Part shown: one piece after another, positions 1 to 35,053 of the stretch | Layout of the letters: each line of letters opens with the position of its first letter | Numbering within the stretch: the stretch's first letter is position 1 | Source of the DNA: Myxococcales bacterium | GTDB lineage: Bacteria > Myxococcota_A > Polyangia > Haliangiales > Haliangiaceae | Direction of reading: 5' to 3' | Assembly (NCBI GenBank): GCA_016720595.1 | Contig: JADKKI010000060.1 | Coordinates: forward strand, 1-35,053 | DNA: 35,053 nucleotides | Notes under the pieces: model-generated | What the model was told of the DNA's origin: nothing | The model's input: only the letters and a program-made list of their open reading frames with translations | The model's database searches: none | Translations under genes and position numbers: made by a program

Positions 1-527
1 TAGAGGAACTGCGGTGCTTGCAGCATCGCGCTGAGGGTCAGCTGCACCGCCGCAGGGAAGTCCACGGCGGTCGCCCACGAGGTGAAGCGCTGCGTGAAGT
101 GCGCCTCCTCCTCGATGGTCAGCGGGCGACGAAACATCCGCGCCCCGGTGGTCCGGATGAAGGCCGTGCTGCACGCCGCGGCCTGGGTCGGCGTGGCCCA
201 GTCCGCGCAGCCGGTGATGGTCGCGACCGCCGCGGTGTCCTGCGTCGCGGCCGCGGCGTAGAGGTTCGCGATCGCCTCGAACCGCGCGATCCGCACGTCC
301 GACGGCGCCTGGGCCTCGACCTCGTTGTCGAACCCAGAGACCGAGTTGTCGGCGGGCAGCGGCGGCAGCGCCGGATGGAGCGCCGGGAACAGGTCGCCCA
401 CGGCGTAGAGGTACTCGGTGTTGCTCAGCCGTCGGAGCGGCGCGGGGCCGATCCCGGCGCTACCCACCGCTCGGTCGTTGCCGCAGCCCAGCGCGAGCAA
501 CAGCGCGAGCACGGCTCCTCGTCGCAT
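1..527 (-). CDS. DUF1592/DUF1587-type lipoprotein, N-terminal part (cut by window edge)
   Basis: The reverse-strand frame opens with ATG at 527 and stays open for 175 codons to the window edge, so the C-terminal part is missing. Residues 1-15 form a short lipoprotein signal with lipobox LALGC (Cys15). Next comes PLRRLSNTEYLYAVGDLF, which resembles the DUF1587 'R-L-[TS]-N-x-E-Y' opening. Near the edge, FRRPLTIEEE and LTLSAMLQAPQFLY match the DUF1595/DUF1592 motifs of large secreted proteins found in Planctomycetes and Myxococcota, often with cytochrome-like or DUF1588/1585 domains further on. The role of this family is not established; an envelope-attached redox or polymer-handling role is often guessed. 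A TACCCT hexamer lies 9 bases before the ATG and there is no Shine-Dalgarno sequence. Family assignment is fairly sure; function is not. Confidence 0.75.
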   Translation of the reverse strand, partial: MRRGAVLALLLALGCGNDRAVGSAGIGPAPLRRLSNTEYLYAVGDLFPALHPALPPLPADNSVSGFDNEVEAQAPSDVRIARFEAIANLYAAAATQDTAAVATITGCADWATPTQAAACSTAFIRTTGARMFRRPLTIEEEAHFTQRFTSWATAVDFPAAVQLTLSAMLQAPQFL

Positions 528-536
528 GGCGGGTAC

Positions 537-542
537 AGGGTA
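537..542 (-). promoter_or_regulatory. -10-like hexamer TACCCT, gene at 527
   Basis: The reverse-strand TAnnnT hexamer is separated from the ATG at 527 by 9 bases, so the transcript would have at most a few untranslated bases. No clear -35 element is visible. Confidence 0.4.
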
Positions 543-629
543 TCAAATCCTCGTCGGTCGGATGGGCGAGAAAACCGGCGTGAGTTGGGGCTGGCGACGG
601 CCGGCCAACGTGATATTCCTGTCCAACTC

Positions 630-1052
630 GTGAGTTACTACGTTCGCTACTTCGCCGACCAGCCGGTCCTCCTCAAGGCGATCGGCACCAATCTGGCCGG
701 TGTCGATCCGCAATTCAAGATCGATGGCGGCGAGCTGATGCGCGGGCCCGAACTGCTCGGCGAGCTCGAGATCAGCGCCTCGGGGAGCGATCTGTTCGCC
801 GAGGATCTCGCATCGAAGATCGGCGAGCTCGAGCGCGTCGGGACGCCGGCGGCCCGCCAGGTGATCGCCCGGCTGCGGGGCACCAAGGCGATCGTCACGT
901 TGCGCGTGCTCGATGGCGAGCGTGACCCGGCCGTGACGTGGGATCTGATCAGCCCGCTGTGGACCGTGCTGCCGGCGTTGTCTGCCGGCCTGACCCAGTC
1001 AGATGGGCAGGGCTTCTACGACGGGTCCCAGCTCGTCGTCGCGCTCGCCTGA
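630..1052 (+). CDS. hypothetical protein (140 aa)
   Basis: I do not recognise the family. GTG at 630 is chosen because the protein-like composition begins there (VSYYVRYFADQPVLLKAIG); the frame stays open far upstream, but only as a shadow of the opposite-strand gene that starts at 527. The product is a soluble acidic 140-residue protein with no signal peptide or membrane segment. It mixes helical stretches (ELLGELEI, DLASKIGELERVG) with beta-like ones (KAIVTLRVL), and ends in YDGSQLVVALA. It could be a small cytoplasmic immunity- or regulator-like protein, but nothing in the sequence decides that. It is transcribed away from the lipoprotein gene at 527, leaving about 100 bp between the two starts for both promoters. 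Confidence 0.6.
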   Translation: MSYYVRYFADQPVLLKAIGTNLAGVDPQFKIDGGELMRGPELLGELEISASGSDLFAEDLASKIGELERVGTPAARQVIARLRGTKAIVTLRVLDGERDPAVTWDLISPLWTVLPALSAGLTQSDGQGFYDGSQLVVALA

Positions 1053-1124
1053 CTCCCGAGCTTCAAATCTGGAGCGCCGCGCTTGACGCGCGCGAGCCCG
1101 CGGCGCTTGCTCGGGCTACCCAAC

Positions 1125-1739: not shown

Positions 1740-1783
1740 TCCGTCGCTCGAGCGCGGCGAGCTCAGCGCGATCCCTCAGCTCT

Positions 1784-1791
1784 AAGGCAGG
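1784..1791 (+). promoter_or_regulatory. ribosome-binding site AAGGCAGG
   Basis: A purine-rich Shine-Dalgarno-like stretch sits 7 bases before GTG 1799 and decides that start. It is one of the few clear ribosome-binding sites in the window and belongs to a gene lying downstream on a probable shared transcript. Confidence 0.6.
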
Positions 1792-1798
1792 TACCTAC

Positions 1799-2385: not shown

Positions 2386-3213
2386 GTGGGGCTGGTGCTG
2401 CTGCTCGGTTGGGCTCGTGGTGGATTGCGGCCTCGGGCGGGGGCGCGGGGCAGGGGGTGCGCGGGCGACGCGCTCTCGCCCACACCGGTGCGTGCCGGGA
2501 CCGCCGTGCGCCCCGGCGCCGACGATCCGGTGAGCGCCACGTTCTGGACCTGGGCCCAGGCAACGTTCGCGATCGTCGATGCACCAGCGTCGAAGGCCGC
2601 CGCAGCCAGGATCGCCGCGCAGCTGAGCGCAGAGGATGACGTGGTCGATCTCGGTCCCACCACGATCGCCATCGTCGACACGACCGAATGGACGATGGTC
2701 GACGAGTTCGTCGCGCGTGGGTGCGAGAACATGCACGGTCAACCCTGCGATCCGTTTGCGGTCAAGACGGGCAGGAAGGTCAGGCATCCCGATCGGATGT
2801 CGAGCGCCATGCTGATGGGCTACGCGATGCGGCCACCTTGTCCGTGCTGGAGCTCGGCGGGCGGGGTCGTGTTGCGCTGCTGATCGTTCGAGCCGCATCA
2901 GGACAAGATCCTCGACGTTTACAACAACCCGTCCCACGCCAAGCAGGTCCTCGCATACCTCGAGACAGTTCAGGAGCCCGCACCCGAGCTTCGGGTCGCG
3001 CTCGCGTACGATCGCACGGTGATCGCGGCGTACCTGCACGATGCGGTCGCGTACGCCGGGGCGTACAAGGCGCTCGACGAGGCGCTCGCGAAGGACAAGC
3101 CAGCGGGGGCGGCCAAGGTGGCGATCGACAACGCGCGCGCGAGCCTCGATCTACTCGCGAGCGGCAAGCTCTCGTTCACCGCACCGTTTGGCCTCGCGCC
3201 CTACCTTCAGTGA
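2386..3213 (+). pseudogene. broken hypothetical gene (frame disrupted near 2830-2890)
   Basis: Two protein-like segments share a frame but are split by a TGA at 2881-2883. The first covers about 2520-2830 and includes DVVDLGPTTIAIVDTTEW and MVDEFVARGCENMHGQPC. The second runs from about 2890 to the stop at 3213 and includes HQDKILDVYNNPSHAKQVL and SLDLLASGKLSFTAPFGLAP. Between them the neighbouring frame reads AATLSVLELGGRGRVALL, which suggests two compensating single-base indels rather than a nonsense mutation. The 5' end (GTG 2386, VGLVLLLGW) looks like a lipoprotein signal whose Cys has become Trp, followed by a G-rich low-quality-looking stretch (2430-2465). This is either a decayed lipoprotein gene or sequencing error at G runs. 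No family recognised. Confidence 0.5.
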
Positions 3214-3299: not shown

Positions 3300-3305
3300 T
3301 ATGGT
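3300..3305 (+). promoter_or_regulatory. -10-like hexamer TATGGT, gene at 3312
   Basis: TATGGT ends 6 bases before ATG 3312. The spacing would place the transcription start on the start codon itself, which fits a leaderless mRNA. Confidence 0.5.
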
Positions 3306-3311: not shown

Positions 3312-3806
3312 ATGAGCGTGACCCTCGGCTACCAGGCCACCGCGACAGCCACGGCGACGGCGGAGTTTCGGTGTGTTCATTGCGGTCACCGCGCGCGGGC
3401 GGAAGTGACGGGCGTCGGGGAAGGGGTCCAGAGCATTCTCAACTCGGGTGGCACGGCGCACGCACGTGCACGCGCGGATGCGCGGCTCGACATCGGCCGC
3501 ACGCTGGCTCGCGCGAAGTGCCCGAAGTGCCAGCTGCGAGATGGGTGTGGGGTGTGGCGGTTCTTCCGCTCATTTGTGATCATCGCGGTTCTTATGATGT
3601 CGATCGGGTTCGTGCTCGGCTTCGCACCGACGTGGTTCGATCTCAACATGCGCCCACGCGACAAGGCCTTGGTCGCGTGGCTCGTCCCCGCGCTCATCGG
3701 CGGCACGCTCGTGCTCATCATGCCGTTCCAGATCTGGTTCAGGTGGGCCGGCCTCGACGCTCGCGTACGCTGGCTTGCCGAGCGCGACCCTGCGGCGTCG
3801 ATGTAG
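3312..3806 (+). CDS. zinc-ribbon membrane protein (164 aa)
   Basis: The N-terminal half holds two Cys pairs, FRCVHCGH (Cys21, Cys24) and AKCPKCQ (Cys70, Cys73), about 46 residues apart, as in a split zinc ribbon. Between them is a small-residue, Ala/Arg-rich segment. Two hydrophobic segments follow at about residues 87-107 (SFVIIAVLMMSIGFVLGF) and 122-142 (LVAWLVPALIGGTLVLIMPF), so the protein should sit in the inner membrane with the zinc ribbon in the cytoplasm. Myxobacterial genomes carry many such orphan zinc-ribbon/membrane proteins without known role. The gene stands alone, with a TATGGT hexamer 6 bases before the ATG. Topology is inferred from hydrophobicity only. Confidence 0.75.
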   Translation: MSVTLGYQATATATATAEFRCVHCGHRARAEVTGVGEGVQSILNSGGTAHARARADARLDIGRTLARAKCPKCQLRDGCGVWRFFRSFVIIAVLMMSIGFVLGFAPTWFDLNMRPRDKALVAWLVPALIGGTLVLIMPFQIWFRWAGLDARVRWLAERDPAASM

Positions 3807-4678: not shown

Positions 4679-6211
4679 TCAGCTCACCTGACGCGTCCGA
4701 CCCACCCAGTAGGGCGCGCGCAGCAGGAACTTCTGGAGCTTGCCGGTGGCGGTTCGTGCGAGCTCCGCGCGGATCTCGATCGACGTGGGGCACTTGTAGT
4801 GGGCGAGGTGCGCGCGACAGTGAGCGATCAACTCGATCTCGGAGGTGGTCGCACCCGGGCGGAGCACGACGAGCGCCTTCACGGTCTCGCCCCACTTCTC
4901 GTCGGGGACGCCGATCACCGCCACCGCATCGACGGTGGCATGGGCGGCCAAGCAGTCCTCGACCTCGATCGAGCTGACGTTCTCACCGCCGGTGATGATC
5001 ACGTCCTTCTTGCGATCGGAGATCGAGACGTAGCCGCCCTCGTCGAGCATGCCGCCGTCACCGGTGTGGAACCAGCCGTCGACGATCGCGGCGTTGGTCG
5101 CCACGGGATCGTTCCAGTACCCCGCCATCACCACGTTCGCGCGAGCGAGGACCTCGCCTTGTGCATCGACGCGCACGCGGGCACCGATCACGGGAGCACC
5201 GGCTCGCCCGAGCTTCGCGGCACGCGCGGCCGGGCTGAGGTCGTCATACTCCGCGCGGAGGCGATTCATCGTGAGCAGCGGCGAGGTCTCGGTGAGGCCA
5301 TAGAGCTGGATGAACTCCCAGCCGAGCTCGGTCTCGACGCGCTCGATGGTGCGCGTGGGCGGCGGTGCTCCGGCGACCAGGATCCGGGTCTTGCCTCGGC
5401 CCGGGACCGCGGCGAGGCCCTGGGCCGCATCGAGCACCCCGTTGACGACAGCGGGTGCGCCACCGAGGAACGTCACACCATGCTTGTCGACGCGCCGCAG
5501 CAGCTCGGCGCCGCTGACCTTGCGCAGGATCACCTGAGGCACGCCCATCGCGGCCAGTGCGAACGGCATCCCCCACCCGTTGCAGTGGAAGATCGGGACC
5601 ACGTGGAGGAAGCAGTCGCGATCGGACACGCCGGCGTGCCAGCCAAACGTCGTGGCGTTGAGCCAGAGGTTGCGATGCGTGAGCTGGACGCCCTTGGGGC
5701 GTGCGGTGGTCCCGCTCGTGTAGTTGAGCGTGGCGACACTGTCCTCGTCGATCTCGATCAGGTTGGGCGCCTGGGTCTGCTCGAACAGCTGGGCGTCGGA
5801 GGCCTCTCCGAGCACGAACCGATGTTCGACGGGGACCGCGGCGAGATCCTCCTCGAGCTCCGGGTCGAGCAACAACACGCGCGCACCGGAGTGCTCGACG
5901 ATGTACGTGATCTCGTGGGCGTGCAGGCGGAAGTTGATCGGGACCAAGATCCGCCCGGAGATGCAGGCTCCGTAGAGCGCCGCGATCCAGCGCGCCGAGT
6001 TAGGCGACACGATCGCGATGCGCTCTCCCTGGCCGATGCCGAGCGCGTCGAGCGCGGCCGCGAACGACCGTGCACGACGCGCGAGCTCGCCGTACGTGAT
6101 CGCCCCCCAGCTCCGCGCCGGCTGGTCCGGTTCGTCGACGACGCCGATCCGGTCGCCGTAGACCTGTTCGGCACGGTCGAGGAAGTCGCGCACGGTCAAA
6201 GGGACTCGCAT
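4679..6211 (-). CDS. AMP-dependent acyl-CoA synthetase/ligase (ANL superfamily)
   Basis: The 510-residue cytoplasmic enzyme activates a carboxylic acid as acyl-AMP and then as acyl-CoA. The ANL core motifs are all present: P-loop TSGTTARPKG (about residues 165-174), LYGLTETSP, NDPVATNAAIVDGWFHTGD, the hinge SDRKKDVIITGGENVSS, and the catalytic-lysine motif RTATGKLQKFLLR near the C terminus. The order and spacing resemble the medium/long-chain fatty-acyl-CoA ligase branch (FadD3/AlkK-like), but the substrate cannot be read directly. Start at ATG 6211 (MRVPLTVRDFLDRA) fits the family; it is preceded by TACCGT with 6 bases between. The promoter region (6212-6366) is shared head to head with the CAP-domain gene. 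DUF924 lies downstream. Confidence 0.93.
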   Translation of the reverse strand: MRVPLTVRDFLDRAEQVYGDRIGVVDEPDQPARSWGAITYGELARRARSFAAALDALGIGQGERIAIVSPNSARWIAALYGACISGRILVPINFRLHAHEITYIVEHSGARVLLLDPELEEDLAAVPVEHRFVLGEASDAQLFEQTQAPNLIEIDEDSVATLNYTSGTTARPKGVQLTHRNLWLNATTFGWHAGVSDRDCFLHVVPIFHCNGWGMPFALAAMGVPQVILRKVSGAELLRRVDKHGVTFLGGAPAVVNGVLDAAQGLAAVPGRGKTRILVAGAPPPTRTIERVETELGWEFIQLYGLTETSPLLTMNRLRAEYDDLSPAARAAKLGRAGAPVIGARVRVDAQGEVLARANVVMAGYWNDPVATNAAIVDGWFHTGDGGMLDEGGYVSISDRKKDVIITGGENVSSIEVEDCLAAHATVDAVAVIGVPDEKWGETVKALVVLRPGATTSEIELIAHCRAHLAHYKCPTSIEIRAELARTATGKLQKFLLRAPYWVGRTRQVS

Positions 6212-6217: not shown

Positions 6218-6223
6218 ACGGTA
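6218..6223 (-). promoter_or_regulatory. -10-like hexamer TACCGT, gene at 6211
   Basis: The reverse-strand TACCGT is spaced 6 bases from the ATG of the acyl-CoA synthetase, with no Shine-Dalgarno sequence between. It supports ATG 6211 over the longer frame. Confidence 0.5.
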
Positions 6224-6354: not shown

Positions 6355-6360
6355 TACAGT
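6355..6360 (+). promoter_or_regulatory. -10-like hexamer TACAGT, gene at 6367
   Basis: TACAGT ends 6 bases before ATG 6367 and supports that start over an in-frame GTG-type extension beginning about 75 bases upstream. Confidence 0.5.
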
Positions 6361-6366: not shown

Positions 6367-7518
6367 ATGCCTCGCCCCTGGCTCGTCGCGGTCGTCGCGC
6401 TCCTCGTGCTGGTGACCCACACCGCCGTGGCCGCGCCGCCGGAGGCCGGGGCGCTCGAGCGCGTCAACGCCTATCGCGCTGCGGCCGGGCTCGGGGCGGT
6501 TCGCATCGATGCAGCGCTCAGCAAGGGCTGCATGGAGCACGCGCAGTACATGCTGAAGAATGCAGGCACCGACGCGATGGTCGGGCTCGAGGCGCACAAG
6601 CAGCGGCCCGACTTGCCGGGAGCAACACCCGCGGGCGCGAAGTGCGGGAAGGCCGCGGATCTGTTTCCCGGTGTGGCGGATCTCGGCCTCGCGATCGATG
6701 GCTGGATGGCGGGCATCTATCACCGGCGCCCGATGCTCGATCCAGGCCTCAAGACGATCGGCATCGGCTATGCGGCGCTGCCCGATGGCTCGCTGATGGC
6801 GGCGCTGATGTTCGGCGAATCGACGAAGCTCGGCGCCTGGCCGGTCCGCTATCCCGCGGCGGATCAGACCACGGTGCCACTCGAGTACGGCAACGAGATC
6901 CCGAACCCGATCCCGGGGCAGGGGACCGGCGGGTATCCGATCACGCTGCAGTTCCCCGCGTTCGACGAGGTCACGGGCGTGCGCGCGGCACTCGTCGATG
7001 CCGCCGGAGCGAAGGTCCCGTTCCACCTCTCGGACCCCGAGCATCCGGCCACCTCGTTCGGGCAGTACGGCGTGGTGAGTGTGATCCCGAAGCGCGCACT
7101 GGCGCCGGACCAGCGCTACACGATCCGGATCGAGGCGACGTGGAAGGGCACGGCCAAGACCTGGAGTTGGAGCTTCCGGACCATCGCGCTGCGCCGGCTC
7201 GATGCGAATGACGATGCGGCGATGGTCGGTGCGATCGGGGTGCCGAGCCTCGTGCGTGGCACCGTCTCGTACGGCGGGATGATGAACACGGCCACGGTGT
7301 TCCTGCAGATCGGCGCGAGCAAGGACGGTCGCTACCAGATGCTCTCGGTGTTGATCCCGATCGCCGTGTGGAAGCAGCTCGCCGGCAAGGCGGCGCCAGG
7401 ATCGTTCAAGGGCAAGACACTCGAGGTGCAGGCGACCCCGCAGCTCGTGCAGCAGAAGTACCTCAACCTGACGATCGCCGAGCAGGCGCAGCTCCGGGTC
7501 GTCGCGCCCGCGCGCTGA
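6367..7518 (+). CDS. secreted CAP-domain protein with Ig-like C-terminal domain
   Basis: The 383-residue product starts with a Sec signal peptide (MPRPWLVAVVALLVLVTHTAVAAP, cleavage near Ala22/Ala23). A CAP/SCP-like domain follows (about residues 28-165): ALERVNAYRAAAGLGAVRID, then KGCMEHAQYMLKN with the conserved His, and GIGYAALPDGSLMAALMFGE as the closing strand. A region near residues 185-300 (PITLQFPAFDEVTGVRAALV, then RALAPDQRYTIRIEATWKG and WSWSFRT) looks like a bacterial Ig-like (SbsA/Big_5 type) domain. A C-terminal beta-rich domain of unknown type completes it. CAP proteins bind lipids or wall ligands, or act as proteases in some lineages; none of that can be decided here. The protein should be periplasmic or secreted. 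Confidence 0.8.
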   Translation: MPRPWLVAVVALLVLVTHTAVAAPPEAGALERVNAYRAAAGLGAVRIDAALSKGCMEHAQYMLKNAGTDAMVGLEAHKQRPDLPGATPAGAKCGKAADLFPGVADLGLAIDGWMAGIYHRRPMLDPGLKTIGIGYAALPDGSLMAALMFGESTKLGAWPVRYPAADQTTVPLEYGNEIPNPIPGQGTGGYPITLQFPAFDEVTGVRAALVDAAGAKVPFHLSDPEHPATSFGQYGVVSVIPKRALAPDQRYTIRIEATWKGTAKTWSWSFRTIALRRLDANDDAAMVGAIGVPSLVRGTVSYGGMMNTATVFLQIGASKDGRYQMLSVLIPIAVWKQLAGKAAPGSFKGKTLEVQATPQLVQQKYLNLTIAEQAQLRVVAPAR

Positions 7519-8330: not shown

Positions 8331-8336
8331 TACCCT
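8331..8336 (+). promoter_or_regulatory. -10-like hexamer TACCCT, damaged gene at 8343
   Basis: TACCCT ends 6 bases before GTG 8343. The promoter-like arrangement is intact although the reading frame behind it is not. Confidence 0.4.
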
Positions 8337-8342: not shown

Positions 8343-8811
8343 GTGATCCTCACGAGATGTCGTCCCCTGCTGATCGTGGTCGCGCTGGTCCCGGGGTGCA
8401 GTGGATCGAACCATCGCCCCATCGCGACGGGGGGGGAGACCGCCGAGGTCGAGCTTCCGGGCCGGGGGCTACGAGGACAACGGCAGCAGAAGGAGATCCC
8501 CGAGGTCGCCGTCGCGCTCTCGGCCAAGCCAGAAGCGGGGCGTGCCGTCGGGACGGTCATCGTGTTGCAGAAGGCGCCACTCCCCACCGGGGATGAAGGG
8601 AGGCGCCAAGACGGTCGTGTTCGGTGCGCCAGGGGCAGCGGGCGAAGGTCGTGACCTGGTTCGGGGGGTGCGGATCGAGTTCTCAGCCAGGGGGGAGCTC
8701 TAGTCGGACACCACCGGTGAGCCGCACGGGACAGCTGGCCCTGATCTGCCAGTACGAGACGGCGAGATGGGGGGCGGTGTGCCGCTCGACGGCCGCTGGC
8801 TGGGCCACTGA
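8343..8811 (+). pseudogene. lipoprotein gene with several frame disruptions
   Basis: From GTG 8343 the frame gives a clear lipoprotein start (RCRPLLIVVALVPGCSGS, lipobox Cys19). It runs on in plausible sequence to about 8595 (EIPEVAVALSAKPEAG, GTVIVLQKAPLPTG) and would stop at 8654. Beyond that, protein-like pieces appear in other frames: KGGAKTVVFGAPGA near 8595-8640, RAKVVTWFGG near 8640-8670, then TTGEPHGTAGPDLPVRDGEM ending at TGA 8809-8811 after an in-frame TAG at 8701. At least two or three indels would be needed to restore one reading frame. Runs of G (for example around 8429-8436, 8659-8665 and 8691-8696) sit near the breaks. It is a decayed gene or a sequencing-error cluster; no family recognised. 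Confidence 0.55.
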
Positions 8812-8820: not shown

Positions 8821-9675
8821 CTACGCACCGAGCTCGACGACGAGGATGTCCGGATCGGCGTTGAGGCGGAGCGCCACCTCGGTGCCACCGATCCCGCGGC
8901 TCACGATCAGCGTACGGCCGTCGGCGAAATCGAACCGGCCGTGCGCGTGGCGGCGCGAGAGCGGGCCGGGCACGAGGATCGGGATGCCGCCGGGTAGCGC
9001 GATGTGGCCGCCGTGGGTGTGCCCACACACCGCGAGCTCGAACGGCTGCTCTCCGAGGTGCATCATCATCTCGGGCGCGTGGGTGAGGATGACGCGGACC
9101 TGCTGGTCATCCTCGAACACCGGCGAGGTCGGGCGGATCCCGGTCCATGGATCGTCGAGGCCAGCGAGCGTCACGTGCGCGAACGGGGCCGGCAGCGTCA
9201 CGCGCTCGTTGACGAGCATGCGCGCGCCTCCGCGCTCGAGGGCGTTCACGATGGCCGCGTCATCGGCCCACAGATCATGATTGCCGAGCACGCCGAACAT
9301 CCCGAACGGCGGCGCGATCCGGTGGAGCCGCTGCTCGATCGCGGAGATGTACGTGGCGGAGAGGAAGATGTAATCGCCGCCGAGCAGGACCACGTCCGCC
9401 GCGGTGGCCGCGAGCACGTCGAACGCCTCATCCAGCAAGGTCGGGTGCGTGGTGGGGCCCGCGTGGAGGTCCGAGATGAAGGCCACGCGCAGCGGTCGCA
9501 CGTCGCGTGGCCAGCGTGGCGTGGCGATCCGGTGATGCCGGACCTGAACGCGCCGCTGCATGCCGAGGGCGCGCACCACCCGCGAGGGCCAGTTGCCGCG
9601 GTACGCGAGGCCGAGCGCCCACTCCACGGCGTGGCGCGCCGAGCTGTAGTGCGTTCCTCGTCCGTGGAGCGGCAT
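8821..9675 (-). CDS. metallophosphoesterase (calcineurin-like)
   Basis: The 284-residue product carries the full metal-binding set of the calcineurin-like phosphoesterases: FISDLHAG (Asp69, His71), LGGDYI (Asp101), LGNHD (Asn132, His133), LTHAPE (His199) and CGHTHGGH (His219, His221). The layout matches the YkuE/YaeI-type subgroup, which in other bacteria acts on phospholipid or UDP-sugar phosphoesters, but the substrate here is unknown. No transmembrane segment is evident at the N terminus, so it is probably cytoplasmic or peripheral. The start is ATG 9675 (MPLHGRGTHYSS); the 36 extra codons upstream have a shadow-like composition and overlap the gsk promoter. It is divergent from gsk with 79 bp between the starts. 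Confidence 0.9.
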   Translation of the reverse strand: MPLHGRGTHYSSARHAVEWALGLAYRGNWPSRVVRALGMQRRVQVRHHRIATPRWPRDVRPLRVAFISDLHAGPTTHPTLLDEAFDVLAATAADVVLLGGDYIFLSATYISAIEQRLHRIAPPFGMFGVLGNHDLWADDAAIVNALERGGARMLVNERVTLPAPFAHVTLAGLDDPWTGIRPTSPVFEDDQQVRVILTHAPEMMMHLGEQPFELAVCGHTHGGHIALPGGIPILVPGPLSRRHAHGRFDFADGRTLIVSRGIGGTEVALRLNADPDILVVELGA

Positions 9676-9682: not shown

Positions 9683-9688
9683 AACCTA
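9683..9688 (-). promoter_or_regulatory. -10-like hexamer TAGGTT, gene at 9675
   Basis: The reverse-strand hexamer is 7 bases from the ATG of the metallophosphoesterase gene, in the short divergent region shared with gsk. Confidence 0.4.
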
Positions 9689-9740: not shown

Positions 9741-9746
9741 TACGCT
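9741..9746 (+). promoter_or_regulatory. -10-like hexamer TACGCT, gsk promoter
   Basis: TACGCT ends 8 bases before GTG 9755. The same hexamer occurs before the HemF-like gene at 20296, with a 6-base gap. Confidence 0.45.
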
Positions 9747-11068: not shown

Positions 11069-11074
11069 TACGAT
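11069..11074 (+). promoter_or_regulatory. -10-like hexamer TACGAT, gene at 11080
   Basis: TACGAT ends 5 bases before GTG 11080. It lies within the 17-base gap after gsk, so the barrel gene appears to have its own promoter despite the tight spacing. Confidence 0.45.
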
Positions 11075-11717: not shown

Positions 11718-11723
11718 TAGACT
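11718..11723 (+). promoter_or_regulatory. -10-like hexamer TAGACT, gene at 11729
   Basis: TAGACT ends 5 bases before ATG 11729. It supports that start over an in-frame start-codon candidate 57 bases upstream inside the barrel gene. Confidence 0.45.
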
Positions 11724-11728: not shown

Positions 11729-12988
11729 ATGGGCAAGGTCTGGATCGTCCTGGCATGTCTCGCCGGCTGCGGAAGCTCGGGCTCGTCATCGGGGACGCCA
11801 CCACCCACCACCGAGCCACCGGATCCTCCGCGCGTCGCGCAGGAGACTCCGATCGACGCTGCGATCGATGCGGCCACGGCCACCGCCGAGCCCGATCACG
11901 CGGTGGCGCCCGTCGCACCTCCGCCTGCGTGCCTCGCCGCGGGGGCCACGATGACCGCCGTCAACCTGCGCGCGCCTCGCAACGAGCTCCGCGCATGTTT
12001 CGACACCAACTTCGACAGCAAGGCGGACACCTGCGCGCGCTGGCGCCGTGACACCGGGGCGCTGATCTCCGTCGAGCCGGTGTTCGATGTCGAGGCGACC
12101 GATGCGACAGGAGATGCCCTGGTGGCACCGCCCGTCGAGTTTCACTCCCAGGACGTCAACGACGATGACCATCGCCTGGAGCTCGTCGACAACACGGCCG
12201 AGGTCTGCTCGCCGGATCGCGCGTGCATGCGGATCAAGCCCTTGCTCGCCGAGGGCGAGGAGATCGCGGAGGTGTTCGTCGACGGGCCGTATCGCGCCGG
12301 GGCGATCTCGATCAAGAGCAGCGACAGCGCGAGCTGGCGCATCGAGTTCTGGGATGTGCAGGGCGGCCGGCTACGTGCGCGGCAGAAACTCGAGAGCAAG
12401 CCGGACGCGACGACCGAGGTCAAGCTCCGCATGGGGAGCCAGGTCGTGATCGCGCTGATCACGCGCGATGGCAAGACGCGCGGCGTGACCTACGGCCTCG
12501 ACGGCGCACCGCATGGCGCGTTCGCTCAGGGCGCACGCGATCTGGATCTCGATCGCACCGTCGAGCTCGGTGATGCCTACGTGATGGTCGATGCGCCCGA
12601 GGGCAAGCCCTACGGGATCCTGATCACCAGCGTGACCACCGGCGCCACGCTCGCGAGGATCTCGATCCCGCGGACCGAGGAGCTGACCCTCGAGGCGCTC
12701 GGCACGTACGTGATCGCGGCGCAGGGAGGCGAGCAGCTCCGGTTCGACGTGATCGATCCCCGGGCCCGGACCTCGCGGACCCTGATCGCGCCCGGCTGGA
12801 CTTCGTCCCGAGTGTCAGCCGCTCGATCGGACCACTGGGCGGGGATGTCGCGGAAGCCGCCGACGCACTCGCGCGTCCAGTCATCGCAGATGTCCTGGAA
12901 GCTGCCGCACTGGGCCTCGGTCAGGGCGACCGGACGACGAAGGACCACGTTGTCGGGGAACTCCGTATGGGTCAGGAAGGCCGTGTAG
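11729..12988 (+). CDS. lipoprotein, 3' end doubtful
   Basis: ATG 11729 gives a short lipoprotein signal (MGKVWIVLACLAGCGSS, lipobox Cys14). A Pro/Ala/Thr linker follows (to about residue 65), then a beta-rich domain (FDTNFDSKADTCARW, FHSQDVNDDDHRLELVDN, GAISIKSSDSASWRIEF, ELGDAYVMVDAPEGKPYG, ALGTYVIAAQGGEQLRFDV). It should be an outer-membrane or periplasmic lipoprotein; no family recognised. Coding quality is high to about base 12795. After that the frame runs on to TAG 12988 in sequence with poor third-position GC, while a better coding signal appears on the opposite strand. A one-base shift near 12795 extends plausible coding (LDFVPSVSRSIG) to about 12830, so the true stop codon seems to be missing. 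Confidence 0.7.
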   Translation: MGKVWIVLACLAGCGSSGSSSGTPPPTTEPPDPPRVAQETPIDAAIDAATATAEPDHAVAPVAPPPACLAAGATMTAVNLRAPRNELRACFDTNFDSKADTCARWRRDTGALISVEPVFDVEATDATGDALVAPPVEFHSQDVNDDDHRLELVDNTAEVCSPDRACMRIKPLLAEGEEIAEVFVDGPYRAGAISIKSSDSASWRIEFWDVQGGRLRARQKLESKPDATTEVKLRMGSQVVIALITRDGKTRGVTYGLDGAPHGAFAQGARDLDLDRTVELGDAYVMVDAPEGKPYGILITSVTTGATLARISIPRTEELTLEALGTYVIAAQGGEQLRFDVIDPRARTSRTLIAPGWTSSRVSAARSDHWAGMSRKPPTHSRVQSSQMSWKLPHWASVRATGRRRTTLSGNSVWVRKAV

Positions 12989-13281
12989 CGCGCGTAGGTC
13001 GAGGGAGAAGGGGGAAGCGTCGGGGCGCACGGGCGGGGCGGACCCGGCGGGCCCGGAGGATTCACCGCGCACGAAGTCGCGAGCGGTCGTGCGGGTCGTA
13101 CCGCCGTGGCGTGGGGCCGGCGGCCGTCGAGGTGATGCAGCACAGGCGCCGCCGAGCCGGCCCGGAGCCGGGCGGCTCCAGAGCCGGCCGTGGAGCGACC
13201 GGCGCCGTCCTCGCCCGGCGCCGCGCGGGGCGCACAGACAAGCACGAGGAGAGGCCCCCAGGAAGAACGGAACGAGCGCAC
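12832..13281 (-). pseudogene. fragment of a secreted/lipoprotein gene, 3' end missing
   Basis: On the reverse strand, bases 13060-12835 code for convincing protein: YTAFLTHTEFPDNVVLRRPV, EAQCGSFQDICDDWTRECV, then GGFRDIPAQWSDRA. Third positions are almost all G or C. Further 5' the same frame leads to GTG 13281 and VRSFRSSWGPLLVLVCAPRA, which resembles a lipoprotein signal (lipobox-like LVLVC). The stretch between (13060-13250) shifts between frames. No stop codon terminates the good part; it runs straight into the antisense of the gene from 11729. It looks like the inside of a gene joined tail to tail with another, by deletion or misassembly. Confidence 0.4.
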
Positions 13282-14003
13282 GCGAAGGTATGTGAGGTGG
13301 GCCTGGGGAGACACGACGGAGGAGGCACCCCGCAACGGCTTGGGGGCCCGCGGGGGGCACGAGAGGGAAAAGCAAACGACGCGTGAGCGAGATGGTGGGG
13401 GCGGGACCGCGAGACCCGCAGGACGCGCCTCGTGGTCGCCGCGTCGCGGTCCGCCTTCGGCGTATCGGAAGGCAGCGCCGCGAGAACCGTGTCGAGCCCG
13501 GTCCCGGCGCTCCTCGCGCACGCGAGGTCCTTGCAGGCGCACGCCGCATCACGCTGCCCGGCGAGCTTCGCCACCGCGGCGTCCGAGGTCGCGTTGCCGG
13601 TGGAGGGAGCGGCCGTGCGCTCGCCGTACCAGGCGGAGAGGAAGCCGGCGAGCTCCTTCCGCTCGGTGTCGGTGACATCGAGCGGACAGTTCTTGGGCTG
13701 CTCCGCGCGCATCATGCCGTCGAGCATCACGGCGCACTTGGCGGCGACGTGGCGGCGCGCATCCGGATCCGCCGGTGCACCGGTCTCCAGCTCCGAGATC
13801 TCGTCGAGCCCCATCTTGATCGACGTGTCCTCCGGGAAGCACTTCCGCCTCCCGAGCATCACGGCGCGTGCGCGCTCGCAGTACCCGAGAGGATCGGTGA
13901 CGCTCGGGCGCGGGACGGGGGCCGCGCTACCCGCGGCGGGGGACGCTTCCTTCGAGGAGCCGCAGCCCGAGACCAGGACGACGGCGAGCAGGCAGACCTT
14001 CAT
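13062..14003 (-). CDS. lipoprotein, C-terminal third doubtful
   Basis: ATG 14003 starts a typical short lipoprotein signal (MKVCLLAVVLVSGCGSSKE, lipobox Cys14). It is followed by a Cys-containing helical domain: GYCERARAVMLGRRKCFPED, HVAAKCAVMLDGMM, KNCPLDVTDTERKELAGF, and DAACACKDLACARSAG. Paired Cys suggest disulfides in the periplasm. Coding quality is good down to about base 13440 (residue ~188, SDTPKADRDAATTR). The remaining 125 codons to the stop at 13062 are Pro/Arg/Ser-rich with poor codon statistics, so the real protein probably ends or shifts frame near 13430. A TAGAGA hexamer lies 6 bases before the ATG. No family recognised. Confidence 0.65.
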   Translation of the reverse strand: MKVCLLAVVLVSGCGSSKEASPAAGSAAPVPRPSVTDPLGYCERARAVMLGRRKCFPEDTSIKMGLDEISELETGAPADPDARRHVAAKCAVMLDGMMRAEQPKNCPLDVTDTERKELAGFLSAWYGERTAAPSTGNATSDAAVAKLAGQRDAACACKDLACARSAGTGLDTVLAALPSDTPKADRDAATTRRVLRVSRSRPHHLAHASFAFPSRAPRGPPSRCGVPPPSCLPRPTSHTFACARSVLPGGLSSCLSVRPARRRARTAPVAPRPALEPPGSGPARRRLCCITSTAAGPTPRRYDPHDRSRLRAR

Positions 14004-15091: not shown

Positions 15092-15097
15092 ACCGTA
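15092..15097 (-). promoter_or_regulatory. -10-like hexamer TACGGT, gene at 15082
   Basis: The reverse-strand TACGGT is 9 bases before the ATG of the HAD phosphatase gene, with no Shine-Dalgarno sequence between. Confidence 0.4.
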
Positions 15098-15365: not shown

Positions 15366-15371
15366 TATCGT
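15366..15371 (+). promoter_or_regulatory. -10-like hexamer TATCGT, gene at 15378
   Basis: TATCGT ends 6 bases before GTG 15378. It would place an alternative in-frame GTG at 15363 upstream of the promoter element, so 15378 is preferred. Confidence 0.5.
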
Positions 15372-20283: not shown

Positions 20284-20289
20284 TACGCT
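20284..20289 (+). promoter_or_regulatory. -10-like hexamer TACGCT, gene at 20296
   Basis: TACGCT ends 6 bases before GTG 20296. An alternative in-frame GTG at 20281 would lie upstream of the element, so 20296 is preferred. Confidence 0.5.
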
Positions 20290-22281: not shown

Positions 22282-22287
22282 AGCCTA
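22282..22287 (-). promoter_or_regulatory. -10-like hexamer TAGGCT, gene at 22275
   Basis: The reverse-strand TAGGCT ends 6 bases before the ATG of the TPR gene. The rest of this divergent region (22288-22376) is locally A/T-richer. Confidence 0.5.
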
Positions 22288-23543: not shown

Positions 23544-23549
23544 ACGGTA
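23544..23549 (-). promoter_or_regulatory. -10-like hexamer TACCGT, gene at 23536
   Basis: The reverse-strand TACCGT is 7 bases before the ATG of the WG-repeat lipoprotein gene and decides that start. The same hexamer precedes the genes starting at 6211 and 32102. Confidence 0.5.
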
Positions 23550-27492: not shown

Positions 27493-27498
27493 TATGGT
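27493..27498 (+). promoter_or_regulatory. -10-like hexamer TATGGT, gene at 27505
   Basis: TATGGT ends 6 bases before ATG 27505, identical in sequence and spacing to the element before the gene at 3312. Confidence 0.5.
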
Positions 27499-27504: not shown

Positions 27505-30198
27505 ATGCGCCTCCGCGTCGCGATCGCTCTCGCCCTGGTCTCGTGCTCGTCCCCAGGAGCGCCTCGCCCGGCGCCCGTCGTCGTCGCTCCTCCTCCGCCA
27601 CCCGCGACGCCGGTCGCACCGCCTGCGGCGCCCACGCCGCCCGCGCTACGGCTCCCCACCGGTGTGCGCCCGACGGCGAACACCGTCGAGCTGACCATCG
27701 ATCCGGCGAGCGAGGACTTCACGGGATCGATCTCGACGAGCATCGCGGTCGACGAGCCGACCTCGGTGATCTGGCTCAACGGTGACGAGCTCGAGCTCGC
27801 CACGGCCACCGCCACGGTCGGGGGTGTGGCGCAGAAGGCGACCATCACGGCGCCGAAGAAGGGCTACCTCGCGCTGTCGTTTGCAGCACCGCTCGCGCGC
27901 GGCACCGGGACGCTGGCGATCACCTATCGCGGGAAGATGCACCGGAGTGACGGCGATGGCATCTACACGGCGCAAGAGGGTGGCGACTGGTACGCGTACA
28001 CCCAGTTCGAGGCCACGGATGCGCGCCAGGCCTTCCCCACGTTCGACGAGCCTTCGTTCAAGGTGCCCTGGAAGCTGACGCTTCACACCAAGCAGGCCCT
28101 GGTCGCACTCTCGAACACGCCCGTCGTCGCCGAGAGGCCCGAGCCCAACGGGATGAAGGCGGTGGAGTTCGCCGAGACCAAGCCGCTGCCGGCATACCTC
28201 GTGGCGTTCACGGTGGGGCCCTACGATCTCGTCGACGCGGGCAAGACCAAGTCCGGCGTGCCCGTGCGGATCGTGGTGCCGCGTGGACGCAGCGCCGATG
28301 CGGGCTATGCCGCGAAGGTCACCGTCGAGCTGCTCGAGCGGGTCGAGCAGTACTTCGGCACGCCGTATCCGTATCCCAAGCTCGATCTCGTGGCGTTCGC
28401 CGTGTTCAACGCCGGTGCGATGGAGAACCCGGGGCTCATCACGTACCGCCAGAACATCCTCCTGACCAAGCCCGAAGAGCGCACGCTCGGCCGCGAGCAG
28501 CGGTTCGCCACGGTCACCGCGCACGAGATCGCACACCAGTGGTTCGGCGACTACGTCACGCTCGCCTGGTGGGATGACACCTGGCTCAACGAATCGTTCG
28601 CGAGCTGGATGGAGACCAAGATCATCGAGGCCTGGCAGCCCACGTGGGATCTCGACATCGATGCGGTCAGCTCCAAGTCGGGCGTGATGGGCCGCGACAG
28701 CCTCGACAGTGCTCGCGCGATCCGTCAACCGATCACCACGGCGGAGGACATCGACAGCTCGTTCGATGGCATCACCTACGGCAAGGGCGAGGCGGTGCTC
28801 GCGATGATCGAGCGCTCGGTCGGCCCGGATGTGTTCCAGCGCGGCGTGCGTGCGTACCTGGCGAAGCACGCGTGGGGCAACGCCACGTACGACGACTTCG
28901 TCGGGGCGATGACCGAGGCCGCCGGCAAGGATCTGCGGCCGCTGTTCGAAGCGTTCGTCAAGCAATCGGGTGTGCCCGTGGTGGAGGTTCGGTTGCAGTG
29001 TGCGAAGGGCGAGCCTGCCAAGCTCGCACTGAGCCAGCGCCGCTATGCACCCACCGGCTCGAAGATCGATCCGAACCGGACCTGGACGATCCCCGTGTGC
29101 GTTCGCTGGGGCGCCGGCGCCAAGACGGGGCGCGATTGCTTCGAGCTGTCCACACCCGCTGCAGAGCTCGCGCTGTCGGCGCCGTCGTGCCCGGACTGGG
29201 TGGTCCCGAACGAGGGCAGCCACGGCTACTACCGCGCCCAGCTCGAGCCGGCGCTGTTGACCAAGCTGCTCGGCCGCGCGCGCAAGGTGCTCGGGATCGG
29301 CGAGCGGATCGGCTTGATCGGTGATGTCGATGCGCTCGTCGAGAGCGGCGTGGTGGGGAAGGGCGTGGCGCTCGCGCTGGTCGCCGATCTCGCGAAGGAT
29401 CCGAGCCGCCACATCGTCGATGCGTCGATGGGCATCGTCGCGGGCATCGACGAGATGGTCGGCGAGCAACTCCGCCCGAACTACGAGCGCTTCATCCGCA
29501 AGCTCTACCTCGCGCGCGCCAAGCAGCTCGGCTGGCAGAGCAAGCCGGGGGAGGGCCCCGATGCGAAGGAGCTGCGCCCCGAGCTGCTCTCGCTGGTGGC
29601 CGGAGATGGCAAGGATCCCGCGCTGGTCGCCGAGGCGACGAAGCTGGCGTGGAAGTGGCTCGATGATCGGAAGGCCGTGGATCCCACGGTCGTCGGCGCG
29701 GTGCTCGGCGTGGCCGCGCGGTACGGAGATCAGGCGCTGTACGATCGGCTGCACGCCGAGGCGAAGAAGGTCACCGATCGTACGGAGCGCGGGCGCATCC
29801 TCTCGGCGCTCGGCGGATTCTCCGATCCGAAGATCGTCGTGCAGGCCCTCGCGCTGATCCTCACCGACGAGTTCGATCTCCGCGAGGCCGGCGGTCTGTC
29901 GCGTGGGGCGATGCAGGATCCGCGGACCCGGATGATCGCGTACGCGTTCGTGAAGGAGCACTTCGACGAGATCTCGGCGAAGTTGCCGCCCGCGTACCGC
30001 ACGTACATGGCGTACTTCGCGATGCCGCTGTGCGACGACAAGTACAAGCCGGAGCTCGAGGCGTTCCTGAAGCCGCGGATCGAGAAGCTCGACGGCGGTC
30101 CGCGCACGCTCGCGCAGGCGATGGAAGGGCTGTCGCTGTGTGCGGCGGGCCGCAAGGCGCAGGCGCCGGCCGTCGAGGCGTTCCTCAAGAAGCAGTAG
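27505..30198 (+). CDS. M1-family metallo-aminopeptidase, lipoprotein
   Basis: The 897-residue protein has an M1 (gluzincin) catalytic core and a lipoprotein signal (MRLRVAIALALVSCSSPG, lipobox Cys14), then a Pro/Ala linker. The N-terminal saddle domain includes YTQFEATDARQAFPTFDEPS, the exopeptidase motif is AGAMENPG (starting about residue 303), and zinc site HEIAHQWFG (His340, Glu341, His344) is followed by NESFA, whose Glu is 18 residues after the second His. The C-terminal half is an ERAP1-like helical domain. The family removes N-terminal residues from peptides. Most bacterial PepN enzymes are cytoplasmic, so lipidation suggests a periplasmic or outer-membrane role in digesting peptides from prey or debris. 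The start at ATG 27505 agrees with TATGGT and the signal peptide. Confidence 0.93.
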   Translation: MRLRVAIALALVSCSSPGAPRPAPVVVAPPPPPATPVAPPAAPTPPALRLPTGVRPTANTVELTIDPASEDFTGSISTSIAVDEPTSVIWLNGDELELATATATVGGVAQKATITAPKKGYLALSFAAPLARGTGTLAITYRGKMHRSDGDGIYTAQEGGDWYAYTQFEATDARQAFPTFDEPSFKVPWKLTLHTKQALVALSNTPVVAERPEPNGMKAVEFAETKPLPAYLVAFTVGPYDLVDAGKTKSGVPVRIVVPRGRSADAGYAAKVTVELLERVEQYFGTPYPYPKLDLVAFAVFNAGAMENPGLITYRQNILLTKPEERTLGREQRFATVTAHEIAHQWFGDYVTLAWWDDTWLNESFASWMETKIIEAWQPTWDLDIDAVSSKSGVMGRDSLDSARAIRQPITTAEDIDSSFDGITYGKGEAVLAMIERSVGPDVFQRGVRAYLAKHAWGNATYDDFVGAMTEAAGKDLRPLFEAFVKQSGVPVVEVRLQCAKGEPAKLALSQRRYAPTGSKIDPNRTWTIPVCVRWGAGAKTGRDCFELSTPAAELALSAPSCPDWVVPNEGSHGYYRAQLEPALLTKLLGRARKVLGIGERIGLIGDVDALVESGVVGKGVALALVADLAKDPSRHIVDASMGIVAGIDEMVGEQLRPNYERFIRKLYLARAKQLGWQSKPGEGPDAKELRPELLSLVAGDGKDPALVAEATKLAWKWLDDRKAVDPTVVGAVLGVAARYGDQALYDRLHAEAKKVTDRTERGRILSALGGFSDPKIVVQALALILTDEFDLREAGGLSRGAMQDPRTRMIAYAFVKEHFDEISAKLPPAYRTYMAYFAMPLCDDKYKPELEAFLKPRIEKLDGGPRTLAQAMEGLSLCAAGRKAQAPAVEAFLKKQ

Positions 30199-32107: not shown

Positions 32108-32113
32108 ACGGTA
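32108..32113 (-). promoter_or_regulatory. -10-like hexamer TACCGT, gene at 32102
   Basis: The reverse-strand TACCGT is 5 bases before GTG 32102 and lies inside the 16-bp gap between this gene and the permease gene, so the two genes seem not to depend on one promoter. Confidence 0.45.
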
Positions 32114-32745: not shown

Positions 32746-32754
32746 GGGCGGGCG

Positions 32755-32764
32755 ACGCTATCAT
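32755..32764. promoter_or_regulatory. overlapping divergent -10-like elements
   Basis: The ten bases acgctatcat read TAGCGT on the reverse strand (9 bases before the permease ATG) and TATCAT on the forward strand (32759-32764, 33 bases before ATG 32798). If both are used, RNA polymerase could serve only one gene at a time. Confidence 0.35.
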
Positions 32765-33408: not shown

Positions 33409-33436
33409 CCAGCGGCCGCGGATCGTTGTGTCGACC

Positions 33437-34033
33437 ATGAAGCTCGTCGGGCTCCTCGCGCTCGTGGTCGGCTGCGGCTCCGCGGCCCAGGTCCCAGCGC
33501 CGCGCACGTCGCCGTCTCCAGCTCCTGCTCCGGCGACGCCCGCGACGCCCGCGACGCCCTGCATCCCAGGCCCGCCCCTCGTGGCGAACGAGCTCTACAA
33601 GCAGCTCGAGGCGTACTCGTGGTCGGTCTACCTCGGCCCGGACGAGGCACCACCACCGCCGACCACGTTCGGCACGTGCACCGTGAACAGGAACATCGTC
33701 CGCGCCGCCGACGGGACGATCGTGGCCGAGCTCGGGTGCGGCGTGCGCGTGCTCGCGCCCGGCATCGTCGACGATCTCGGGCTCCAGCTCGGCGCGCGGG
33801 GTCAGGACGTGCTCGATCGCAAGCCCAAGCCGGTGCAGCCGCTGGTGTGTACGGCGAACGGGCCTGATCAGGTGCGGTGCCGCTTCGAGCGCGAGCCCGA
33901 TCGCGACACCGACTCGAGCTGGTATGTCCTCGCGGGGCATCTCGGCGAGGACGTGCTCACCGGCGAGGCGGCGGCGCGGTGGTTCGGACCCGCGCGGATC
34001 GTCGAGATCGAGGTCAGCGTCTGGTGTCACTGA
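33437..34033 (+). CDS. lipoprotein (198 aa)
   Basis: ATG 33437 gives a very short lipoprotein signal (MKLVGLLALVVGCGSAAQ, lipobox Cys13). An Ala/Pro/Thr linker with the tandem unit ATP (PATPATPATP) follows, then a domain with four or more Cys: TFGTCTVNRNIVRAADGTIV, LGCGVRVLAP, LVCTANGPDQVRCRFE, and a final VSVWC. The Cys spacing suggests two disulfides. No family recognised. An earlier start GTG 33428 adds only three residues. It is 29 bp after the small membrane protein gene; I see no hexamer of the usual form before it. Confidence 0.78.
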   Translation: MKLVGLLALVVGCGSAAQVPAPRTSPSPAPAPATPATPATPCIPGPPLVANELYKQLEAYSWSVYLGPDEAPPPPTTFGTCTVNRNIVRAADGTIVAELGCGVRVLAPGIVDDLGLQLGARGQDVLDRKPKPVQPLVCTANGPDQVRCRFEREPDRDTDSSWYVLAGHLGEDVLTGEAAARWFGPARIVEIEVSVWCH

Positions 34034-34046
34034 CGTCGCCTTCGAC

Positions 34047-34052
34047 TATCGT
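34047..34052 (+). promoter_or_regulatory. -10-like hexamer TATCGT, gene at 34059
   Basis: TATCGT ends 6 bases before ATG 34059, the same element and spacing as before GTG 15378. Confidence 0.5.
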
Positions 34053-34058
34053 GCTCCG

Positions 34059-35053
34059 ATGTTCTCGAAGTTCCTGGTCGTGACCCTCGGGTCGTTTGCA
34101 CTCCTCGGCGGTGGCGCCTGCAAGAAGAAGTCGGCTGACAAGGCCGGTGCCGGCTCGGGCGAGCCCGTCGCTGCAGTCTCGACAGGCAAGGGCGTCAAGG
34201 CCGCGCTCGGGGATGGTGGGAAGCCTGGTGGCGCTCCGTTCGCGCCGAGTACGCAGGGGTTCAAGTTCCAGAACTACGGGAACGAGGGCGGCGTGGAGAA
34301 CCTGACGCCGGTCGAGGTCCAGCGGATGTTCGGCCCGGAGGTCTGCGCGGAGCAGGAGGGCGGGACCTGCGTGCTCACGCCGGCTGCGGAGCAGTGGATG
34401 GACGAGATCAACAAGGGGATGGACGGCGGCCACTGCGAAGGCTTCGCGGCGCTCTCGCTGCTGTTCGAGCTCAAGAAGCTGTCGCCCGCGGACTTCGGCG
34501 CGCCCACGGCGTTCCAGCTCGCGCTCCCGAACAACCTCAAGCTCCAGCACGAGATCGCGTACTGGTTCGCCACGCAGTACATCGCACCGATGTCGACCAG
34601 CGAGATCAAGACGCTGACGCCCACCGAGGTCGCGGACAAGCTCGTCGAAGCGTTCACCACGGGCAGCGAGAGCTACACGCTCGGCATCTACATGGCCGAC
34701 GGTTCGGGCGGGCACGCGACCACGCCCTACGCGGTCGTCGAGAAGAGCCCGACCGAGACCTGGATCATGCACTACGACAACAACTTCCCCGGTGAAGAGC
34801 GCCACATCGACATCGATCGGAAGGCCAACACCTGGAAGTACTTCACGGCCGCCGATCCGAAGGAGCCGGGCTCGGCATACCTCGGTGATGCCACCACGCG
34901 AACGCTCACGCTCGCCCCGACCAGCGCCCGGCTCCAGAAGATGACGTGTCCGTTCTGTGGTGAGGTCGACGACCCTGCCGATGACGAGGCCCGCGCGAAG
35001 GGCTCGCGGCAGATCATCCTCGATGGCGACGCCGACCTCCTGATCACCGACGA
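34059..35053 (+). CDS. lipoprotein with cysteine-peptidase-like triad (cut by window edge)
   Basis: The frame is open for 331 codons to the window edge, so the C-terminus is missing. ATG 34059 starts a lipoprotein (MFSKFLVVTLGSFALLGGGA then Cys21-Lys-Lys-Lys). After a Gly/Ala/Lys linker (about 25-65) is a domain with GGHCEGFAALSLLF (Cys126), GSGGHATTPYAVVEK (His219) and IMHYDNNFPGE (Asp240, Asn241). The order Cys, then H-A-x-x-P-Y-x-V, then Y-D-N-N is that of papain-fold cysteine peptidases and transglutaminase-like enzymes; similar C-H-D/N sets occur in many uncharacterised bacterial proteins. A CPFC motif follows near residue 303. It may be a peptidase, amidase or acyltransferase on the envelope. 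The fold assignment is inference. Confidence 0.7.
   Translation, partial: MFSKFLVVTLGSFALLGGGACKKKSADKAGAGSGEPVAAVSTGKGVKAALGDGGKPGGAPFAPSTQGFKFQNYGNEGGVENLTPVEVQRMFGPEVCAEQEGGTCVLTPAAEQWMDEINKGMDGGHCEGFAALSLLFELKKLSPADFGAPTAFQLALPNNLKLQHEIAYWFATQYIAPMSTSEIKTLTPTEVADKLVEAFTTGSESYTLGIYMADGSGGHATTPYAVVEKSPTETWIMHYDNNFPGEERHIDIDRKANTWKYFTAADPKEPGSAYLGDATTRTLTLAPTSARLQKMTCPFCGEVDDPADDEARAKGSRQIILDGDADLLITD

Follow-up and report, generated by a model that had tools for sequence, protein, structure and literature searches.

TAnnnT Hexamers in Front of the Start Codons of the Window

The stretch of DNA analyzed here, hereafter called the window, comprises 35,053 nucleotides from a Myxococcales bacterium (positions 1 to 35,053 of contig JADKKI010000060.1, assembly GCA_016720595.1), in which the hexamer TAnnnT stands a few bases in front of many start codons and probably constitutes the −10 element of leaderless-type promoters. 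The closest protein relatives of the window carry the names Kofleriaceae, Myxococcales, and Deltaproteobacteria, whereby the Kofleriaceae are placed in the Haliangiales of the Myxococcota (NCBI). The inosine-guanosine kinase encoded from position 9755 is 97% identical to the copy of locus L001, and the genome of this locus (G303) is the one nearest to the window. A sequence-only reading of the window had listed 18 starts that are preceded by a strict TAnnnT at a distance (spacer) of 5–9 bases, and the hexamer was found at 18 of 18.

Nine of the 18 sites have a spacer of exactly 6 bases, as the reading had stated. On the forward strand these are TATGGT (3300..3305) in front of the start at 3312, TACAGT (6355..6360) in front of a CAP domain protein at 6367, TACCCT (8331..8336) in front of a doubtful open reading frame (ORF) with the start codon GTG at 8343, TATCGT (15366..15371) in front of 15378, TACGCT (20284..20289) in front of a gene of the coproporphyrinogen III oxidase family at 20296, TATGGT (27493..27498) in front of an M1 aminopeptidase with a lipoprotein-like N-terminus at 27505, and TATCGT (34047..34052) in front of 34059. 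On the reverse strand, TACCGT (6218..6223) precedes an AMP-binding enzyme at 6211(-) and TAGGCT (22282..22287) a TPR protein at 22275(-). A spacer of 5 bases is found for TACGAT (11069..11074) in front of 11080, the product of which has a signal-peptide-like N-terminus, for TAGACT (11718..11723) in front of 11729 with a lipoprotein-like N-terminus, and for TACCGT (32108..32113) on the reverse strand in front of 32102(-). Spacer 7 belongs to two reverse-strand sites, TAGGTT (9683..9688) of the metallophosphoesterase gene at 9675(-) and TACCGT (23544..23549) of 23536(-), the latter preceded by TGC; the single homologue found for 23536(-) has a TAnnnT at spacer 8. The inosine-guanosine kinase gene at 9755 has TACGCT (9741..9746, forward strand) at spacer 8, which is likewise preceded by TGC and resembles an extended −10 element. 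Spacer 9 occurs three times on the reverse strand, namely for TACCCT (537..542) in front of 527(-), from which a protein with a lipoprotein-like beginning is read, for TACGGT (15092..15097) in front of a HAD hydrolase at 15082(-), and for the TGA-preceded TAGCGT (32755..32760) in front of 32745(-), a gene with a weak NicO match. The metallophosphoesterase and inosine kinase genes are divergent, with 79 bp between their start codons and both putative −10 elements inside. As a side observation, the C-terminal translations of the genes at 13062–14003 (reverse strand) and 11729–12988 (forward strand) both resemble out-of-frame protein, perhaps due to frameshifts or assembly errors.

The chance of a TAnnnT had been put at about 0.4% per offset, which is right, since 15.3% A and 15.4% T give 0.36%. 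The pattern TAnnnT-N6-ATG has six matches on both strands of the window, and all of them (6/6) lie at listed gene starts. Dinucleotide shuffles (n = 100) yielded 1.24 matches on average and never reached six (0/100), and the control spacings N16 and N18 gave no match and one match, respectively. For TAnnnT-N6-GTG there were four matches compared to 2.3 expected, which is not significant alone (20/100 shuffles reach four). Three of these four are listed starts and the fourth is TACGAT (3007..3012, forward strand, spacer 6) in front of a small ORF with GTG at 3019, outside the original 18. Fourteen of the 18 hexamers begin with TAC or TAT and four with TAG, whereby the TAG at 22275(-) and 32745(-) is in frame with the start and thus also a stop codon. 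A first count had mixed such stop codons into the TAnnnT numbers at spacers 6 and 9. Because TAG hexamers at these spacers can be in-frame stops, the sites were later split by their third base and TAC/TAT hexamers were counted apart, which left 7 in the window (0.4 expected) and 20 in the related genome G001 (2.6 expected).

Start Choice and Share of Window Genes

In order to remove the freedom of start choice, we used a purpose-written gene finder, which picks starts by coding score only. With these starts, TAnnnT at spacers 5–9 occurs in 10 of 40 window genes, compared to 1, 1, 0, 3, 1, and 0 in six control windows. When any nearby candidate start was allowed, the number rose to 18 of 40 (control windows 3, 1, 2, 6, 5, and 2). 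The gene finder saw no gene at 8343. In addition, a start model with two signals, a TA class and a Shine-Dalgarno (SD) class, was trained on a relative and tested against shuffled upstream sequences. Trained on the related genome G006, it gave 13 of 37 window genes a start with a strict site compared to 1.1 for shuffled sequences, the thirteenth site being that of 3019, and trained on the closest relative G303 it did so for 12 of 37 (200 shuffles, mean 1.0, maximum 5). The mixture shares of 37–46% that the model gives for the TA class are upper bounds in which loose matches are counted. It moved the starts 3312, 11729, and 27505 to 3594, 11951, and 27664, respectively, also saw no gene at 8343, and was undecided at 11080 (SD 0.57 versus TA 0.42). 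For 27505, the homologues contradict the move.

The sequence-only reading had attributed the hexamer to about half of the genes. The excess as such held, but the share was somewhat overstated, as some starts had been picked with the motif in view; the true share of window genes is nearer 25–45%. The share of the window is at the top of the range of its family, whereby the difference to the closest genome, assessed with the model, is not significant (Fisher p 0.14). That the window is richer than the family was considered as well and finds no support in the model (Fisher p 0.07–0.24 against four genomes). The raw number of TAYnnT-N6-ATG matches is 5 compared to 1.1 expected from G303 (p 0.006), in a window that was picked for this very feature.

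The Hexamer Is Enriched Genome-Wide in Kofleriaceae

For whole genomes we counted TAYnnT-N6-ATG, a measure independent of gene calls. The control was its counterpart with a gap of 18 bases, which keeps the codon frame. The counts for N6 and N18 were 249 and 46 in G303, 332 and 41 in G006, 282 and 52 in G002, and 143 and 34 in G001. Among 30 genomes of the family of G006, the Kofleriaceae, 25 have a ratio of 2 or more and 19 a ratio of 3 or more, and 29 give p < 0.001 in binomial tests that assume an equal chance for both spacings. Two Ferrimonas genomes gave 256 versus 236 and 115 versus 137. The positional enrichment that the sequence-only reading expected genome-wide is therefore seen in relatives of the window, where it is strong, spacing-specific, and family-wide.

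Across 282 genomes of the phylum, counted against an N16 control, the ratio is at least 2 in 67 and at least 4 in 16, and 75 pass a Bonferroni threshold of 0.01. G002 ranks third and G006 sixth, and the phylum median ratio is only 1.1. Most of the signal is held by genomes with low background counts, a stand-in for high GC content (median ratio 2.45 in the lowest class and 0.74 in the highest). The N16 gap falls in another codon frame than N6, and AT-rich genomes have ratios below 1 with it; for this reason the family and 20 selected genomes were counted against N18, and the phylum-wide figures rest on the weaker control. The highest ratio of all 282 genomes was observed for G057, with 67 TAYnnT-N6-ATG matches compared to 5 (N16) and 7 (N18).

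At modelled starts, strict TAnnnT sites with spacers 5–9 were found for 83 of 330 genes in G006 (5.3 in shuffled sequences), 73 of 340 in G002 (4.7), 70 of 328 in G001 (14.3), and 38 of 172 in G303 (5–8). In G004, the genome of L013 and a metagenome-assembled genome labelled Archangium, the number is 26 of 364 (9.7). Among divergent genes, a strict site is present in 45/118 (G006), 28/86 (G002), 37/106 (G001), 19/64 (G303), and 8/102 (G004). With coding-only starts in G001, TAnnnT comes first among the 1280 three-position patterns compared at spacers 5–9 (52/328 compared to 5.3). The G001 stretches (L099–L118) also show a second, small spacing peak at 11 (10/328 genes) after a dip at 10 (2/328), and tandem hexamers with spacers 6 and 11 occur in two G001 genes with a site at 11 (L101, L109) and once in L116. 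A possible bias in gene function was tried, by a crude rule of our own, on promoter-proximal genes of G001, G002, and G006. Lipoprotein-like starts are not enriched (28/147 genes led by TAnnnT, hereafter TA-led, versus 40/202 with SD), and secreted-like starts amount to 54/147 versus 54/202.

Further Promoter Elements Around the Hexamer

If TAnnnT is a −10 element, as the reading had claimed, other parts of a promoter are to be sought at positions that were not used in finding the sites. We pooled 241 strict sites with spacers 5–11 from G001, G002, and G006, the most frequent spacer being 6 (104/241). A TGn directly in front of the hexamer is present in 59 of the 241 sites, compared to 6–28 at 11 other offsets. 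A match of at least four of six bases to TTGACA at a distance of 16–18 bp is found in 45/241, compared to 9, 12, and 16 at three control spacings, and TTG alone peaks at 16, 17, and 18 bp (6, 10, and 8 sites) with 0–3 elsewhere between 8 and 29 bp. Since TGn and the −35-like element are enriched although neither had been used in site finding, the claim is borne out in the relatives, and TAnnnT represents a −10 element of the sigma-70 type.

In the stretches of G001, G002, and G006, 23 divergent pairs with both genes TA-led were found, with gaps of 23–147 bp. In one divergent pair of G001 (L103:2522-2544) the modelled starts lie only 23 bp apart, and there is one palindromic block, ATGCTAGCAT. 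This block could represent overlapping −10 elements in both directions and possibly a symmetric bidirectional leaderless promoter.

Orthologues of the Inosine Kinase and the M1 Aminopeptidase

The start of the inosine kinase gene can be fixed, because the protein is conserved from residue 1, even into gammaproteobacteria, and a start codon is present at that point in 59 of 61 homologues. As in the window, TAnnnT stands at spacer 8–9 in L001, L002, L004, L018, and L019, in L001, L002, and L019 at spacer 8 exactly, and ten further myxobacterial loci have it at 6–11. Others, among them the near relatives L003, L005, L006, and L007, have TAnnnT 18–30 bases upstream or an SD word instead. An SD-like word within 20 bases was found in 1 of 17 leaderless rows, in 7 of 19 rows with TAnnnT further upstream, and in 13 of 20 rows without TAnnnT. 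One of the 17 leaderless rows, L047, comes from an AT-rich gammaproteobacterium and is probably due to chance. In a tree of 56 of the 60 rows (59 loci and the window, leaving out the gammaproteobacterial L049, L050, L051, and L057), the leaderless label needs seven changes, of which at least five are forced by well-supported branches. The pooled myxobacterial profile of the gene was made without L030, L054, and eight gammaproteobacterial loci.

For the M1 aminopeptidase (27505), 20 of 30 loci were examined, leaving out matches that begin late and L206, and L187, L192, and L200 were not readable. TAnnnT at 6–8 is present in 13 of 17 readable homologues, mostly with lipoprotein-like N-termini. 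Among the homologues whose alignment reaches close to the N-terminus, 12 of 14 have TAnnnT at 5–11 in front of a start that lies within eight codons of the aligned first residue.

Shine-Dalgarno Words

SD words were counted at −7 to −15 against control positions. Before the window genes overall they are not enriched (2/37 compared to 4.0), and the reported lack of an SD sequence at the TAnnnT starts was found to be correct, except for an SD-like word before a rival start at 512. In G303 the enrichment is weak (24/172 compared to 11.2). The SD class of the model settled there (stretches L213–L232) on a weak ACGA-like word and not on AGGAG, which is in line with weak SD use in the lineage of the window. 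In tight same-strand pairs, SD words occur in 35/112 (G001), 43/112 (G002), and 28/94 (G006) genes compared to 7.2, 9.0, and 6.5. They are rarer in promoter-proximal genes, with 16/182, 44/177, and 35/196 in the same three genomes compared to 11.2, 9.0, and 14.2. For promoter-proximal genes, TAnnnT (5–9) and SD numbers are 8 and 2 in the window, 18 and 12 in G303, 36 and 16 in G001, and 53 and 35 in G006, and in G002 SD words exceed TAnnnT (44 versus 32). The notion that leaderless starts dominate goes too far for the genes as a whole; for promoter-proximal genes, TAnnnT exceeds SD words in the window and in three of the four family samples, with G002 departing from this.

Discussion

Taken as a whole, the analysis suggests with a probability of roughly 0.86 that TAnnnT is a sigma-70-type −10 element, that the mRNAs are leaderless or nearly so with presumably SD-independent initiation, and that this is a major promoter-proximal arrangement in the Kofleriaceae. 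A −10 element ends about 6–7 bases before the transcript start. From this distance, the transcripts should have their 5′ ends at, or no more than a few bases away from, the start codon. In the proposed mechanism, the −10 element of the housekeeping sigma-70 type would be placed such that RNA polymerase begins on the initial base of the start codon or a few bases off. The resulting mRNAs would be leaderless or nearly so, and the ribosome would presumably initiate directly on the 5′-terminal AUG or GUG without SD pairing. Both the position of the 5′ ends and the SD-independent initiation are predictions. Among the Kofleriaceae, leaderless would then be the commonest recognizable arrangement at genes next to a promoter in three of the four genomes sampled, while SD words are seen most often in tight gene pairs. 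Within the limits of sequence evidence, the enrichment, the spacing, and the TGn and −35 elements in relatives support the leaderless-type promoters that the sequence-only reading had proposed.

Several observations weigh against this interpretation. The genome-wide tests were made on relatives of the window and not on its own genome. Five of the 30 family genomes have a ratio below 2, and in G004 TAnnnT ranks only fourth, with GGA words first. The model trained on G006 retains only 12 of the listed 18 starts, and it shifts 527(-) to 512(-), where an SD-like word yields a good SD-led alternative (posterior 0.98). Loose TA-class calls of the model occur also in shuffled upstream sequences (62/330 in G006), therefore only the strict counts were usable. 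In-frame stop codons inflate the TAG hexamers at spacers 6 and 9. Furthermore, the inosine kinase gene has TAnnnT at 5–11 in only 18 of 61 homologues and lacks it in the near relatives L003, L005, and L006, and the single homologue found for 15082(-), in L005, has no TAnnnT.

It might be that the start codons are mis-assigned, that translation mostly begins further downstream, and that the promoters give ordinary short leaders. GC-rich DNA offers many alternative in-frame starts, and for four of the 18 starts (527, 3312, 11729, 27505) the model chose a position further downstream, which at 512 comes with an SD-like word. However, the conservation of the inosine kinase from its first residue speaks against such a displacement, several TA-led starts, including those of the M1 homologues, lead directly into signal-peptide- or lipoprotein-like N-termini, and wrong starts would not give a sharp spacing peak at 6–9, which makes this explanation improbable. 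Somewhat less probable still is that TAnnnT acts in translation, as an AT-rich element before the start, for example for S1, without being part of a promoter. For other phyla, AT-rich biases upstream of starts are discussed as S1 sites (PMC5397173), but the hexamer comes with TGn and a TTGACA-like −35 element at 16–18 bp, and it is commonest in divergent genes (G006 45/118 versus 11/94 in tight pairs), which fits a promoter.

The least credible explanation, to which we give hardly any weight, is an artefact in which starts were chosen because they follow TAnnnT and TAG stops add to the count. Such effects exist, as seen from the inflated in-frame TAG and from the drop of the share from 18/41 to 10/40 with starts chosen blind. 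The excess persists for TAC/TAT hexamers alone, and as a full explanation the artefact is already refuted by the whole-genome counts, which are free of gene calls and show the same spacing-specific excess.

The sequence-only reading had called leaderless dominance a non-standard view for a myxobacterial lineage, a statement that needs tempering, as leaderless genes of delta-proteobacteria were predicted already in 2011. According to the main text of Zheng et al. (2011; PMC3160421), 8 of 33 delta-proteobacterial genomes have predicted TA-led leaderless genes, with a mean of 15.8% (5.7–20.6), and this main text names no myxobacterium. The sites described here resemble the TA-led genes of that text, which carry a TANNNT, its first T some 12 bp ahead of the start, with sharply peaked spacing and with weak middle bases in high-GC genomes, and which were likewise read as −10 elements giving leaderless mRNA. 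Compared to that mean, our four Kofleriaceae samples reach 21–25% of genes by strict counts, and 33–38% of the divergent genes in G001, G002, and G006 are TA-led, whereby the two methods differ. For Deinococcus radiodurans, the same text gives 46.1% leaderless genes. On its plasmid MP1, our pipeline found 12 strict sites in 124 genes (shuffled 3–4) with a TAnnnT peak at spacers 6–7 and 0/39 in tight genes. The Kofleriaceae share is higher than that of MP1, which is a weak yardstick, being one transposon-rich plasmid with a TA motif that is not a clean TAnnnT. Cupriavidus pMOL30 gave 0/58 strict sites with the same pipeline.

GeneMarkS-2 predicts leaderless transcription in 21.6% of bacterial species, a figure that, as cited in PMC9581028, comes with no Myxococcota named. 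The mixture of leaderless and SD starts in one genome is shared with the leaderless species of that prediction (PMC9581028). For Myxococcus xanthus a public Cappable-seq data set exists (ArrayExpress E-MTAB-11042), and the main text of the paper on it does not use the word “leaderless” (PMC8844925). A literature search by title and abstract opening yielded no paper on leaderless genes in Myxococcota among the matches listed, with subscription papers mostly outside its reach. Thus, the TA-led leaderless signal and its reading are already known; new are its strength in the Kofleriaceae, its spread through the phylum, and the repeated change between leaderless and leadered states at one gene.

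A further step would be that in most Kofleriaceae, foremost in the lineage of the window, leaderless initiation has replaced SD as the promoter-proximal default, that SD is used mainly inside operons, and that individual genes have repeatedly changed from one mode to the other through shifts in the relative position of start codon and promoter; we consider the chances of this scenario to be about even. Practical consequences may arise for gene finders that expect SD sequences, which may misplace starts in Kofleriaceae-type genomes. Some antibiotics stop initiation on leadered messages and do not block it on leaderless ones (PMC9581028). With this finding, a large diderm lineage, uncultured for the most part, joins the bacteria that seemingly rely heavily on leaderless mRNAs, and one phylum is seen to show how a gene changes between leaderless and leadered states.

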